Assembly (NCBI RefSeq): GCF_004349105.1
Contig: NZ_SMLB01000004.1
Location: 124,001 to 188,000 of the forward strand
Direction of reading: 5' to 3'
Source of the DNA: Jiangella aurantiaca
Lineage (GTDB): Bacteria; Actinomycetota; Actinomycetes; Jiangellales; Jiangellaceae
DNA length: 64,000 nucleotides
Part shown: positions 37,853-60,341 of the stretch, one piece after another
How positions within the stretch are numbered: position 1 is the first letter of the stretch
Layout of the letters: each line of letters begins with the position of its first letter
The notes under the pieces: model-generated
What the model saw: the letters and a program-made list of their open reading frames with translations, nothing else
Told to the model about the DNA's origin: nothing
The model's database searches: none
Made by a program: the position numbers and the translations under genes

Positions 37853-38981
37853 GTCGACCATCTTCGCCGAGATCACGGCGCTCGCGACCCGCACCGGCGC
37901 GATCAACCTCGGGCAGGGCTTCCCTGACACCGACGGCCCGGCCGCCATCCTCGACGCGGCCGGCGCGGCCATTCACGGTGGGCTGAACCAGTACCCGCCC
38001 GGCCCCGGGATGCCGGTGCTGCGCGAGGCGATCGCCCAGCACCAGCGGCGGTTCTACGGCCTCGACGTCGACCCCGACACCGAGGTGCTGGTCACCGCCG
38101 GCGCCACCGAGGCGATCGCGGCGACGATCCTGGCGCTGTGCGAGCCGGGCGACGAGGTGATCACGTTCGACCCGGTGTACGACTCCTACGCGGCCTCCAT
38201 CGCGCTGGCCGGTGCCGTCAAGCGCACCGTCACGCTGCGCTGGCCGGACTTCGGGCTCGACGAGGCGGACCTGCGGGCGGCGTTCACGGCGCGCACCCGC
38301 GTCGTGCTGGTCAACACGCCTCACAACCCGACCGGCAAGGTGTTCGACCGGGCCGAGCTGGAGCTGATCGGCTCGCTGGCCCTCGACCACGACGCGGTCG
38401 TCGTCACCGACGAGGTCTACGAGCACCAGGTCTACGACGACGCCGTCCATGTCCCGGTCGCGACGCTGACGGGCCTGGCCGACCAGACCGTCACCGTCTC
38501 GTCGGCCGGCAAGACGTTCTCCGTCACCGGCTGGAAGGTCGGTTGGCTGCACGGGCCGGCCGAGCTGGTGGCCGCAGCGCGCGCCGTCAAGCAGTTCCTC
38601 ACGTTCGTCAGCGCCGGGCCGCTGCAGCCCGCCGTCGCGACCGGCCTCGGCCTCGGCGACGACTTCTACGCCGGGCTCGCGAGCGGGCTCCAGGCCAAGC
38701 GCGACCTGCTGGTCGACGGCCTGCGTGCGGCCGGGTTCGCGGTGTCGGTGCCGCGCGGGACCTACTTCGTCGTAGCGGACGCCGCGCGGCTCGGGTTCGC
38801 CGACGGCGTGGAGCTCTGCCAGCGGCTGCCTGAGCTGGTCGGCGTCGCAGCCGTCCCGGTGTCGGTGTTCTACGACGACCCGAAGGCGGCGCCGTCGCTG
38901 GTCCGGTTCGCGTTCTGCAAGCGCGAGGAGGTGCTGCACGACGCCGTCGAGCGGCTGAGCCGGCTGTCATCGCTGGTCTGA
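37806..38981 (+). CDS. PLP-dependent class I/II aminotransferase (DapC-like)
   Basis: A 391-residue fold-type I aminotransferase. Motifs: INLGQGFPDTDGP, QYPPGPGMPVLREAIA, AGATEAIAATILAL, NTPHNPTGKVF, DEVYEHQVYDD, and the PLP-lysine SSAGKTFSVTGWKVGW. It is closest in pattern to actinobacterial N-succinyldiaminopimelate or kynurenine/glutamine transaminase-like enzymes; the substrate is open. The start is GTG 37806 or ATG 37839. The GTG start overlaps the nucleoside hydrolase start head-to-head. Confidence 0.9.
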   Translation: MPARRPALVERMRPFTSTIFAEITALATRTGAINLGQGFPDTDGPAAILDAAGAAIHGGLNQYPPGPGMPVLREAIAQHQRRFYGLDVDPDTEVLVTAGATEAIAATILALCEPGDEVITFDPVYDSYAASIALAGAVKRTVTLRWPDFGLDEADLRAAFTARTRVVLVNTPHNPTGKVFDRAELELIGSLALDHDAVVVTDEVYEHQVYDDAVHVPVATLTGLADQTVTVSSAGKTFSVTGWKVGWLHGPAELVAAARAVKQFLTFVSAGPLQPAVATGLGLGDDFYAGLASGLQAKRDLLVDGLRAAGFAVSVPRGTYFVVADAARLGFADGVELCQRLPELVGVAAVPVSVFYDDPKAAPSLVRFAFCKREEVLHDAVERLSRLSSLV

Positions 38982-47358: not shown

Positions 47359-48927
47359 ATGAGCAGCACAGTCAGCGTCGACGCCGTCGTCGACCGCGCC
47401 CTCCTGGACCGCCTGACCGACCGCGTCGTCGCCCGGCCGCGGGCCGAGCGGGTCGCCACCGTCGCGCCGTTCAGCGGCACCCCGCTGGCCGAGGTGCCGC
47501 TGTCCACCACCGACGACGTCGCGGCGGCGTTCGCCGCGTCCCGCGACGCCGCGCACTGGTGGGCGGCCCGGCCGATCGCCGAGCGGGCCCGCATCATCGG
47601 CCACATCCACGACCTCGTGCTCGACCGCCGCGCCGAGATCGCCGATCTCGTCCAGGCCGAGGCCGGCAAAGCCCGGCGCGACGCGTTCGAGGAGGTCGCC
47701 GACGTCGCGCTCGCCGCCCGGTACGTGTCCGTCCGCGGCCCGCGGGTGCTGCGCGAACGCCGCCGGCTCGGCCTGGCGCCCGGGCTGACCCGCGCCATCG
47801 AGGGCCACCGCCCCAAGGGCGTCGTCGGGGTCATCTCGCCGTGGAACTACCCGCTGACGTTGGCCATCTCCGACTGCCTGCCCGCGTTCGTCGCCGGCAA
47901 CGCCGTCGTGCACAAGCCCGACTCGCAGGCCATGCTGACGGCGCTGCTGGCGCGGTCGATCGCGATCGAGGCGGGGCTGCCGGAGGCGCTGTGGCAGATC
48001 GTCTCCGGTGACGGGCCGGTCATCGGCGGCGCGATCGTCGAGCACGCCGACTACGTGTCGTTCACCGGCTCCACCGCGACCGGCCGCGTCATCGCGGCGC
48101 GGCTGGGCGAGCGGCTGGTCGGCGCGTCGCTGGAGCTGGGCGGCAAGAACCCGATGCTGGTCCTCGACGACGCCGACCTCGACCGCGCCGCCGAGGCCGC
48201 CGTCCGGGCCTGCTTCTCCAACGCCGGCCAGCTCTGCATGTCGATGGAGCGGCTGTACGTCGCGGCGTCGGTGCGCGAGCCGTTCCTCGAACGGTTCCTC
48301 GGGCGGGTCGAGTCGATGCGGGTCGGCGCGGCGTTCGACTACTCCTGCGACATGGGCTCGCTGATGTCGCAGGCACAGCTCGACAAGGTCCGCGCCCACA
48401 TCGACGACGCCGTCGCGAAGGGTGCCCGGGTGCTCACCGGCGGGCAGGCCCGGCCCGACCTCGGTCCCTGGTTCCACGAGCCGACGGTGCTCGACAGCGT
48501 CCGGCCGGGCATGCTCGCGGCCGACCTAGAGACGTTCGGCCCGGTCGTGTCCGTCTACCCCGTCGGCTCCGACGACGAGGCGGTCGAGCTGGCCAACGAC
48601 ACCCCGTTCGGGCTCAACGCCAGCGTCTGGACGTCGAACCTGCGCCGTGGCGTCGACGTCGCCCGCCGGCTGCGCTCCGGCATCGTCAACGTCAACGAGG
48701 GCTACACCGCGGCCTGGGGCAGCCACGACCTCCCGATCGGCGGCATGGGCGCCTCCGGCCTCGGCCGCCGGCACGGGCGCGAGGGCATCCTGCGCTACAC
48801 CGAGCCGCAGGCCATCGCCGTCCAGCGGGCGCACAACCTCGCCCCGCTGAACGGCATGTCCTACGACACGTTCACGGACCTGTTCACGAAGTCGCTGCGC
48901 GTCCTGCGCCGCACAGGCCGCGCCTGA
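47359..48927 (+). CDS. gabD2: Succinate-semialdehyde dehydrogenase (NADP+)
   Basis: A 522-residue aldehyde dehydrogenase of the GabD2 type, which oxidises succinic semialdehyde to succinate. Catalytic Cys is in FSNAGQLCMSMERLY; the general base Glu in ASLELGGKNPMLV; the NAD(P) loop is FTGSTATGRVIA; GVISPWNYPL is family-typical. C-terminal GSHDLPIGGMGASGLGRRHGREG fits GabD2. A leaderless promoter precedes it. Element A of an inverted repeat pair begins one base after the stop. Confidence 0.92.
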   Translation: MSSTVSVDAVVDRALLDRLTDRVVARPRAERVATVAPFSGTPLAEVPLSTTDDVAAAFAASRDAAHWWAARPIAERARIIGHIHDLVLDRRAEIADLVQAEAGKARRDAFEEVADVALAARYVSVRGPRVLRERRRLGLAPGLTRAIEGHRPKGVVGVISPWNYPLTLAISDCLPAFVAGNAVVHKPDSQAMLTALLARSIAIEAGLPEALWQIVSGDGPVIGGAIVEHADYVSFTGSTATGRVIAARLGERLVGASLELGGKNPMLVLDDADLDRAAEAAVRACFSNAGQLCMSMERLYVAASVREPFLERFLGRVESMRVGAAFDYSCDMGSLMSQAQLDKVRAHIDDAVAKGARVLTGGQARPDLGPWFHEPTVLDSVRPGMLAADLETFGPVVSVYPVGSDDEAVELANDTPFGLNASVWTSNLRRGVDVARRLRSGIVNVNEGYTAAWGSHDLPIGGMGASGLGRRHGREGILRYTEPQAIAVQRAHNLAPLNGMSYDTFTDLFTKSLRVLRRTGRA

Positions 48928-48982
48928 CCATGATCATGTTCGCTGGCGGCGTGTCAGCGACCGCGAGGGAACATGATCATGG
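48928..48982. repeat. Palindromic element A (inverted partner of element B)
   Basis: Arms CCATGATCATGTTC (48928-48941) and GAACATGATCATGG (48969-48982) are a perfect 14-bp stem. The loop contains GGCGTGTCAGCGACCGC. Aligned by hand, 48 of 53 bases match the reverse complement of the element at 50013-50069. It lies just after gabD2 and can end its transcript. Confidence 0.85.
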
Positions 48983-49057
48983 GGACCGGGGTCGTGTTGT
49001 CCACAGATCGCCGCGTGCCCCTCGCGGCCGGGTGCTCGCCGGCGGACGATCGTGCTC

Positions 49058-50020
49058 ATGGACGTGCCGCCGCAGTACGACACCCCGGGCCTGCGTGAGC
49101 TGCTCGATCGGCAGCTGGGTCTAGTCTGTGCCGCGCAGCTCCGCAGCCTGGGCCTCGATTACCGCGTCGCTCGGCGCTGGGTCGCGGCCGGCCGCTGGCA
49201 GCGGCCGTACCCGGGCGTCTACGCCACCTTCAGCGGACCGCTGGACCGGGCCGCACACATCTGGGCCGCCATCCTCTGGGTGACGCCGGAGGCGGTGGCG
49301 AGCCACGCGACCGCGGCGGAGCTCGACGGACTGACCGGCCGCATCGACGATCGCATCCATGTCACCGCACCAGTCAGCAGGCGGGTGCGTGCACATGCCG
49401 ACGGCGTCGTCGTGCACTACGCGCACCGGCTCCCGCTCACCCGGCATCCGACAGCGAATCCGCCGCGTACGCGGCTCGAGGACACCGTCCTCGACCTGGT
49501 CGACGTCGCGGTTCGCGCCCGCGACGTCGAGTCCGTGGTGACGATGGCGGTCCAGAAGCGGCTGACCACGTCGCCGCGGCTCGCGGCTGCCTTGATGCGG
49601 CGAAAGAAGATCCGCTGGCGGGCGATGGCCGAGTCGATGCTGCTCGACGTCGCCGAGGGCGCCCAGTCGCCCCTTGAACTGCAGCACCTGCGCGCCGTCG
49701 AGCGGGCGCATCACCTGCCGCGAGGGTGCCGTCAACGCCGTCATGCCGGCGACCGCGTCATCTGGATCGACGTGGACTACGGGCCGTATCACACCAGGGT
49801 GGAGCTGGACGGCCGGCTGGGTCACGACGGCGAGGGCCGGTTCCGGGACCGCCGGCGCGACAACGCCGCCACGGTGAGCGGGGCGTGGACCCTGCGCTAC
49901 GGGCACAGCGAGATCTTCGGCGAGCCGTGCCGGGTTGCTCAGGAGCAGGCACGCGTCCTGCACGACCGCGGCTGGGCCGGCCAGCCCCGGCGCTGCGGAT
50001 CCGACTGCCCGATCCCGTGA
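49058..50020 (+). CDS. AbiEi-type N-terminal domain protein with DUF559-like nuclease fold
   Basis: A 320-residue protein. Residues ~5-90 look like the AbiEi antitoxin winged helix (LRELLDRQLGLVCAAQLRSLG and RRWVAAGRWQRPYPGVYA). Residues ~230-300 carry a VSR/DUF559 nuclease-like core: VIWIDVDYGPYHTRVELDGRLGH and RDRRRDNAATVSGAWTLRYG. Proteins with this layout are common and multicopy in actinobacteria, with unknown function; no partner toxin gene is here. The start is ATG 49058 or GTG 49052. Its stop lies inside element B. It is framed by inverted repeats A and B. Confidence 0.78.
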   Translation: MDVPPQYDTPGLRELLDRQLGLVCAAQLRSLGLDYRVARRWVAAGRWQRPYPGVYATFSGPLDRAAHIWAAILWVTPEAVASHATAAELDGLTGRIDDRIHVTAPVSRRVRAHADGVVVHYAHRLPLTRHPTANPPRTRLEDTVLDLVDVAVRARDVESVVTMAVQKRLTTSPRLAAALMRRKKIRWRAMAESMLLDVAEGAQSPLELQHLRAVERAHHLPRGCRQRRHAGDRVIWIDVDYGPYHTRVELDGRLGHDGEGRFRDRRRDNAATVSGAWTLRYGHSEIFGEPCRVAQEQARVLHDRGWAGQPRRCGSDCPIP

Positions 50021-50069
50021 TCATGTTCCCTCGCGGTCGCTGACACGCCGGGAGGGAACATGATCACGG
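50013..50069. repeat. Palindromic element B (contains stop of upstream gene)
   Basis: Arms CCCGTGATCATGTTCCCTC (50013-50031) and GAGGGAACATGATCACGGG (50051-50069) form a perfect 19-bp stem with a 19-nt loop GCGGTCGCTGACACGCCGG. The AbiEi-like gene stops at 50018-50020 inside the left arm. It separates two convergent genes and would serve as a strong bidirectional terminator. Confidence 0.9.
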
Positions 50070-50072
50070 GCA

Positions 50073-59019: not shown

Positions 59020-60341
59020 CGGGTCACCGCCAGGTCACCCGCGCCGAGTTCGACGTCGATGACGATCGTGCCGCCGCCCGGGCCGTCGGCGCCGTTGTTC
59101 GCGACACCGATGAACTCCAGCCCAGCGCCGTCGCGCGACTCCTCGAAGACGGTGAGATCGCCGGCGCCGACGGTGGCCCGCTCGACCGTGACGTCGGCGT
59201 CCGGCGGCACGATGACGGTCAGCTCGCCGACCCCCTGCGAGACGTCCAGGTGCACCGTCTGGTCGTCGGTGAGGGTCAGCGTGGACAGGTCGTAGGTGAT
59301 GGACCCGGCGCCGTGCTCCTGCATCCTGGTCGGCACCTGGGTCGCCGTGGTGTAGCGGTAGGTGGCGTCGCCGACGTCGCTCCAGTTCCACTGCGACAGC
59401 CAGGTGGCCGGGATCAGCGCGATCGAGAGCAGGAAGCCCAACACGATGAGGCCGCGCGACCGCCCGTACCAGGCGCCGACGAGCAGGCCGACCGCGACGA
59501 TGCCCAGCGGGACCGCGACGTACATCCCCGGCGGGTAGGTCGCCCAGGTCGCGTCGTTGACGGCGAGCACGCCGACGGAGACCAGCGCGAGGCAGAACGT
59601 GATCAGGCCGAGCGCCGAGCGCTGCTTGGCCGGCCGCGCTGGCGGCGACTCGGGCGCCGGGGGCGGCGGCGGGGGTGCCGGACCCCAGTCCGGGCCCTCC
59701 GGCCAGCCGCTGGTCGGGCCGGACGGACCGGCGACCGTGGCGCTGGAGCCGGTGGGGCCGGCGGCGCTCGCGTCGCCGGTCGTGCCGGGGCTCGTGGCGG
59801 CGCTGGTGGCCGTCCCGCCCGGGGCCGCCGGCGCGACGCTGGGATCGTAGACGTAGGAGTCGAACCCGGCCTCCTGCGGCGCGTCGGCGCGGGTCAGGTC
59901 GTCATCGTCGGCGCGCCGGCGCAGCAGCAGGTACACGCCCATGACGGCCAGGAGCAGCAGTACGCCGCCGTCCCACGTGCCGGCGATGATGCCGATGCCG
60001 GCGATGAGGCCGACGCCGGCGAGCAGCAGCGCCAGCGGGACGGTGCCTGTGCGGCGGTTCTCACCACGGCCGAGCGCCTGGTCGAGGATCGAGCGGTCCT
60101 CGTCCTCGGCCGGCACCACCAGCCAGCCGATCGCGTACAGCAGGACGCCCACGCCGCCGAAGATCGACAGGACGACGGTGGCGATGCGGAGCACGACGGG
60201 GTCGATGCCGAGCCGCCGGCCCAGCCCGCCGAGCACACCGGCGACGACCCGGTCCGACCGGCTGCGGCGCAGCGACCGGAACTCGTCCGAGACGCTGGGC
60301 CCGGCGCCCGTGGCGGGGGAGGCAGGAGGCAGATCACTCAT
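59016..60341 (-). CDS. PspC domain membrane protein
   Basis: A 441-residue protein. PspC domain at residues ~20-90: RSRSDRVVAGVLGGLGRRLGIDPVVLRIATVV and LLYAIGWLVVPAEDE. Three more membrane stretches and a low-complexity Ala/Pro/Gly linker (about residues 165-230) follow, then a C-terminal beta-rich region (YRYTTATQVP..., VGELTVIVPPDADVTVERATVGAGDL), similar to the LiaF/DUF2154-type beta-helix domain. It likely senses envelope stress and works with the divergent kinase. ATG 60339-60341. Confidence 0.82.
   Translation of the reverse strand: MSDLPPASPATGAGPSVSDEFRSLRRSRSDRVVAGVLGGLGRRLGIDPVVLRIATVVLSIFGGVGVLLYAIGWLVVPAEDEDRSILDQALGRGENRRTGTVPLALLLAGVGLIAGIGIIAGTWDGGVLLLLAVMGVYLLLRRRADDDDLTRADAPQEAGFDSYVYDPSVAPAAPGGTATSAATSPGTTGDASAAGPTGSSATVAGPSGPTSGWPEGPDWGPAPPPPPPAPESPPARPAKQRSALGLITFCLALVSVGVLAVNDATWATYPPGMYVAVPLGIVAVGLLVGAWYGRSRGLIVLGFLLSIALIPATWLSQWNWSDVGDATYRYTTATQVPTRMQEHGAGSITYDLSTLTLTDDQTVHLDVSQGVGELTVIVPPDADVTVERATVGAGDLTVFEESRDGAGLEFIGVANNGADGPGGGTIVIDVELGAGDLAVTR

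Follow-up and report, generated by a model that had tools for sequence, protein, structure and literature searches.

Why should a single gene of the AbiEi family in Jiangella aurantiaca be enclosed by two inverted copies of one palindrome? The locus lies in a 64,000-nucleotide stretch of contig NZ_SMLB01000004.1, here called the window (Table 1). An initial annotation had described the arrangement as a cassette that could move, or as a defence-type gene with dedicated terminators, and had taken the shared loop as a hint of a bound protein or nuclease, perhaps the encoded one.

Table 1. Coordinates of features at the locus, numbered from the first base of the window
Feature	Position	Strand	Description
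Element A	48927..48983	+	57-bp palindrome, CC-ATGATCATGTTC...GAACATGATCAT-GGG, loop orientation CGTGTCAGCGA
Gene	49052..50020	+	322-aa protein, AbiEi-type winged-helix part and Vsr/DUF559-like nuclease domain (predicted)
Element B	50014..50070	-	same 57-bp palindrome as A, opposite orientation
Whole unit A-gene-B	48927..50070	+	1.14 kb

Elements A and B are indeed inverted copies in opposite orientation, 90% complementary over 59 nt at a separation of 1030 nt, with exactly one gene between them, as first described. The palindromes reported then, 53 bp long with perfect arms of 14 or 19 bp, are real, but the element is longer than stated and so are its arms: B has arms of 23 bp (96%) and A of 22 bp (91%). 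Folded with DNA energies, A and B give hairpins of -25.5 and -30.3 kcal/mol, with z-scores of -8.6 and -10.6, respectively. The sequence TGATCATGTTC occurs exactly in A and B only within the 64-kb window, and with at most one mismatch it matches 9 times against 0.23 expected. Window match counts, hairpin z-scores and the flanking-pair controls given below rule out chance palindromes. Single matches to TGATCACGTTC at 38158-38168 and 59595-59605 apparently lie within coding sequence and are not elements. A search of Rfam with the element returned no RNA family at the gathering threshold.

Element A starts on the final base of the stop codon of an upstream aldehyde dehydrogenase gene and stops about 70 bp short of the enclosed gene. 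The stop codon of that gene had been placed within B, and it is in fact the first three bases of the first TGATCA of B (50018-50023). An ABC transporter gene is the other neighbor, both neighbors being named from a reading of their translations; the unit holds no further gene.

The enclosed gene starts with GTG at 49052, or with an ATG at 49058 that agrees with the starts of orthologues. Its protein has an N-terminal AbiEi-type winged-helix part (residues 1 to about 200) and a C-terminal Vsr/DUF559-like domain (about 205-305). A Pfam scan gave AbiEi_4 above the cut-off, SNAD2 below threshold and nothing else; in particular, it found neither the Y1 (HUH) transposase domain Y1_Tnp nor the catalytic domain of any classical insertion sequence transposase. 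The AbiEi structure 6y8q matches the N-terminal part by sequence profile (E 0.002) and by Foldseek (E 6e-8). The AbiEi half of the name first given to the gene, AbiEi/DUF559-like, is thus backed directly by Pfam. The DUF559 half is reached through relatives and structure: the DUF559 profile does not match the window protein itself, yet weak matches to it come from 11 of 16 relatives (best E 0.003), and the predicted fold (pLDDT 92, loop 255-259 uncertain) has a C-terminal domain resembling I-Bth0305I (3r3p) and NGO0050 (3hrl), with weak Foldseek E values of 0.06-0.1 and target-normalised TM scores of 0.62-0.75. Eight residues are invariant in 55 homologues: E209, D240, E251, D253, H258, D266, R269 and N271. 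The first five are catalytic-type residues, and the predicted PD-(D/E)XK/Vsr-like core has conserved acidic residues and a histidine.

The gene is under purifying selection, with dN/dS between orthologues of 0.13-0.26. At the DNA level it is about 88% identical to its counterpart in genome G002, against 93-95% for the flanks, and so diverges faster than its neighbors. One orthologue, at G001 C1:2988705-2989661, has an in-frame TAG stop and is probably broken; its flanking elements remain.

Gene and palindrome in related genomes

Of 12 Jiangella genomes, 8 have an orthologue 75-100% identical to the window protein, each time with an element copy on either side and with unchanged spacing. Element matches number 7-50 per genome in ten genomes, eight of them with the gene. 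The other two, G006 and G011, retain elements without an orthologue, a state compatible with gene loss and likewise with independence of element and gene. G005 and G010, also without the gene, have 0 and 1 element matches. The window-type element is absent from Phytoactinopolyspora.

Palindromes of their own also accompany paralogues (60-65% identity) and homologues (identity down to about 41%). These homologues are spread across Actinobacteria, in Micromonosporaceae, Streptosporangiaceae, Actinopolymorpha and others. Matching palindromes stand on both sides of 49 of 75 homologues. For shifted windows the figure is 1 of 61, for reversed controls 0 of 75 and for cross-pairs 5 of 222; the 26 homologues with no matching pair include some near contig ends. 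A TGATCA lies close to the stop in 38 homologues, and in 26 of these the TGA of the element serves as stop codon. AbiEi_4 proteins of other subfamilies serve as an internal control, since in the same genomes they mostly have no flanking palindrome pair. The association of palindrome and gene is not due to chance.

Palindrome type also follows the protein tree, requiring 13 label changes where shuffled labels average 29.9 and none of 200 shuffles is as low, in a test where near-copies among the homologues favor clustering of types. As judged from these comparisons, each gene lineage has its own palindrome core. A tie between the element and the encoded protein family is supported, in 8 of 8 congeners, in 49 of 75 homologues and in types that follow the tree. 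AbiEi_4 proteins of other subfamilies at L280 and L285 (G012) also lie between palindrome pairs, which lack TGATCA ends.

Some other enzyme, such as a Y1 or DDE transposase, might spread the palindromes, with the AbiEi/DUF559 gene a passenger trapped between two copies. Solo elements do outnumber units, and G006 and G011 have elements but no orthologue. Against this, the link is found again in dozens of lineages that have diverged and have a palindrome core of their own, and a passenger would not track the sequence of the palindrome. We regard such trapping as very unlikely.

Dispersal of the element and relocation of the unit

The element is not unique to the window gene: the 6.62-Mb Jiangella genome holds about 18 window-type copies, in varied gene contexts. 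The pattern TGATCAT-N(20-50)-ATGATCA finds 98 palindromes in the same genome, where the reversed control finds 0. Other Jiangella, and the genus to which the Phytoactinopolyspora homologues belong, have 23-214 per genome. These palindromes sort into types that differ in their stems; each type has a set length, which measured from one outer TGATCA end to the other is 49, 50 or 57 bp. Complementarity runs 4 bp beyond the TGATCA ends (z 3.5-6) and then stops, so that the full form of the element is CCC[AGT]TGATCA...TGATCA[TCA]GGG. At one site common to two species both arms are altered together, TTCCC/GGGAA against TCCCC/GGGGA, which indicates that the palindrome is kept as a palindrome.

Of 31 copies tested, 29 are intergenic by a heuristic that calls open reading frames from codon bias, and these occur in all gene orientations. 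Copies lie at convergent gene ends in 9 of 29 cases, with no preferred orientation to genes. Searching the genome and its relatives for the element, the check proposed with the initial annotation, gave a divided answer: it flanks the orthologue in all eight Jiangella genomes that have one, but it is not confined to the gene, about 16 further copies being intergenic. Scatter at many convergent gene ends, free of any link to this gene family, had been named as the outcome that would refute the initial interpretation. Scatter was found, but the link to the gene is strict, both among the congeners and against the controls. Scatter and strict gene linkage coexist in REP/RAYT systems also, and scatter is therefore no refutation.

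Could the palindromes be ordinary hairpin terminators, or palindromes of convergent genes, that flank the gene by accident? They do form stable hairpins and are nearly all intergenic. Terminators would not be expected to have fixed lengths and conserved TGATCA ends, to show no consistent gene orientation, to lack any Rfam match and to be tied strictly to one gene family when such pairs surround only 1 of 61 shifted windows. A plain terminator is rejected on the lengths, the ends and the gene-family link, and the accidental reading as a whole we consider scarcely credible. The earlier suggestion of a defence-type gene with dedicated terminators is likewise not favored: the gene has no AbiEii partner, genes at the elements show no consistent orientation, and Rfam gave no match.

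In seven Jiangella genomes A-gene-B occupies one site, between the aldehyde dehydrogenase and ABC transporter genes. G003, G005, G006 and G010 have other sequence there, VapBC-like by eye, while in G011 the site holds a solo element but lacks the gene. In G003 the unit stands at a second site. Nine genomes inspected there do not have it, and in G006 the two genes that flank this site are about 17 bp apart. The block common to the window and G003 is 48928-50070, from element end to element end. On the evidence of these alignments the whole unit has relocated in G003, to a different and otherwise empty site with homology stopping at the element ends, and the original idea of a unit that could move is borne out. 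Since most orthologues of the window lineage share a single conserved site, the unit moves only rarely. More widely in the family, close paralogues (84-87% identical) are often found at different sites, and several such pairs differ in their flanks. At another site, two species have units of different palindrome type, in which gene and both palindromes have changed in step.

A search with joined flanks in nine congeners did yield orthologous sites that have the element in some species and lack it in others (the L023 site), but in these species-level comparisons the intergenic junctions were too diverged for a target-site duplication or a cleavage position to be read. Searches gave no plasmid match, no exact match to the element in viral contigs, and a single partial match to phage, in a record without annotation; a plasmid- or phage-borne unit is rejected on these results.

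A drive like that of homing endonucleases would explain part of this pattern. A Vsr/I-Bth0305I-like nuclease would cut alleles or palindromes without the unit, and host recombination would copy the unit in. The catalytic domain resembles the homing endonuclease I-Bth0305I, units stand at one site across species, and units of different type substitute for each other at one site. Yet the unit contains two complete palindromes and does not split one, so that the site would remain cleavable; homing does not explain solo palindromes at many unrelated sites, and relocation to non-homologous sites occurs. It is a doubtful explanation, to which we attach little weight.

AbiEi proteins are a family of antitoxins and repressors, and the protein may instead be a transcription factor, with A and B as autoregulatory sites, the scattered copies as its regulon, and the nuclease-like domain as a remnant or as acting on some other substrate. 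Family membership, the match of the winged-helix part to 6y8q and the position of A upstream of the start agree with such an operator role. Against it, B overlaps the stop codon and is conserved equally with A, the scattered copies have no preferred orientation and include those at convergent gene ends, the nuclease residues are invariant, and the unit has relocated as a block. An operator and its regulon seem unlikely, while retaining some plausibility.

Proposed mechanism and comparison with known systems

The RAYTs (TnpA-REP), or REP-associated tyrosine transposases, and their REPs and REPINs (PMC2817692, PMC3116915) form the closest parallel. RAYT/REP systems were defined by a gene enclosed by two inverted palindromes, by solo copies spread elsewhere, by co-evolution, by an element abundance that goes with the gene, and by faster divergence than neighboring genes (PMC2817692). 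The window gene likewise has a copy of its palindrome on either side, the two inverted, with further copies dispersed among intergenic sites, each gene lineage of this AbiEi/DUF559-type family has one palindrome type, element abundance goes with gene presence in Jiangella (with the exceptions G006 and G011), and the Jiangella gene outpaces its neighbors in divergence and was not found on plasmids here. The protein is nevertheless not a RAYT, having AbiEi winged-helix and Vsr/DUF559-like parts and no Y1/HUH domain, and the palindromes differ from REPs in having no GTAG or CGTC tag at the foot. They end instead in CCC[AGT]TGATCA, measure 57-65 bp, and occur in tens of copies per type.

Other known systems match in part. 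The AbiE type IV toxin-antitoxin system shares the AbiEi fold of the N-terminal 200 or so residues, but the window gene has an extra nuclease-like domain and flanking dispersed palindromes, and no AbiEii nucleotidyltransferase toxin gene adjoins it; it is not an AbiE pair. Vsr, EDxHD and DUF559 nucleases (3r3p, 3hrl) share the C-terminal fold and catalytic-type residues, within the weak Foldseek similarity given above, but here the domain is fused to an AbiEi part and tied to palindromes of its own. MITEs and insertion sequences with terminal inverted repeats also combine short non-autonomous copies with a gene-bearing unit that has inverted ends; here a complete palindrome forms each end, the protein has no transposase domain of the DDE, Y1 or serine kind, and no target-site duplication was seen at the diverged junctions.

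We therefore propose that the locus is probably an autonomous-looking unit of a RAYT-like chromosomal system of palindrome dispersal, in which a Vsr/DUF559 nuclease takes the place of the Y1 (HUH) transposase. The protein would recognize its own palindrome through the AbiEi-type winged-helix part, and the nuclease domain would cut or nick that palindrome at or near its TGATCA ends. Cutting would lead to the spread of short solo copies into intergenic sites and, rarely, to movement of an entire A-gene-B unit; copy A may also serve in autoregulation. The comparisons show the link of gene and element, its lineage specificity, the dispersal and the relocation of the unit; binding, cutting and the chemistry of movement are what we infer in this scheme. 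We know of no lone Vsr-type nuclease that inserts DNA at new sites, and host repair or another enzyme must therefore participate. Diverged paralogues would act in the same way on palindromes with TGATCA ends and their own stem and loop.

The broader form of the proposal, which we favor by a smaller measure of confidence, is that lone AbiEi-DUF559 (Vsr-fold) nucleases are the dispersal enzymes for cognate palindromes in Actinobacteria. They would constitute a new class of mobile DNA, a non-homologous counterpart of RAYT/REPIN in which recognition and palindrome core would have shifted together many times, with the TGATCA ends constant throughout. In open-access papers we found no earlier description, none with both AbiEi and DUF559, and none linking DUF559 to palindromic repeats; the system looks like an undescribed REP/RAYT counterpart built on an unrelated enzyme. 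Many actinobacterial genomes encode Vsr/DUF559-AbiEi fusions, and the models that these match carry the name of an antitoxin or of unknown function, so that a family with misleading names would acquire a function if its members do disperse palindromes. The origin of palindromic repeats in the actinobacterial genomes that carry them would then be explained, host-tied nuclease and repeats would have a second, independently evolved case beside RAYT/REPIN, and the many natural pairs of gene and palindrome would supply a ready-made specificity code for a palindrome-recognizing nuclease.

Further palindromes and repeats

A 57-bp palindrome of a GGAGAA type, TGATCATGGAGAA...TTCTCCATGATCA, is abundant in the same genome, for example at G000 C5:23561-23617 (L162) and C18:39033-39089, but flanks none of the AbiEi_4 loci examined there. 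Either its own gene has been lost or a different gene family is its partner. Palindromes of different type are sometimes fused end to end with one common TGATCA (L162 1501-1601 and G000 C8:67672-67775), a hint that TGATCA could be a preferred point of insertion or recombination. At G009 C4:106991-108403 (L286), a window-type element is in two halves about 1.3 kb apart, probably through inserted sequence. A repeat of about 80 bp containing CCCGTCCCCCTGATAGCTGCCCGTTCTTAGG has very many copies in Jiangella genomes and was seen in the flank of the L031 element (1838-1920). Genomes of other genera (G050, G077, G092, G101 and G114) have dispersed palindromes with the same TGATCAT...ATGATCA ends around other cores, such as TGATCATGCAGTTG...CAACTGCATGATCA.
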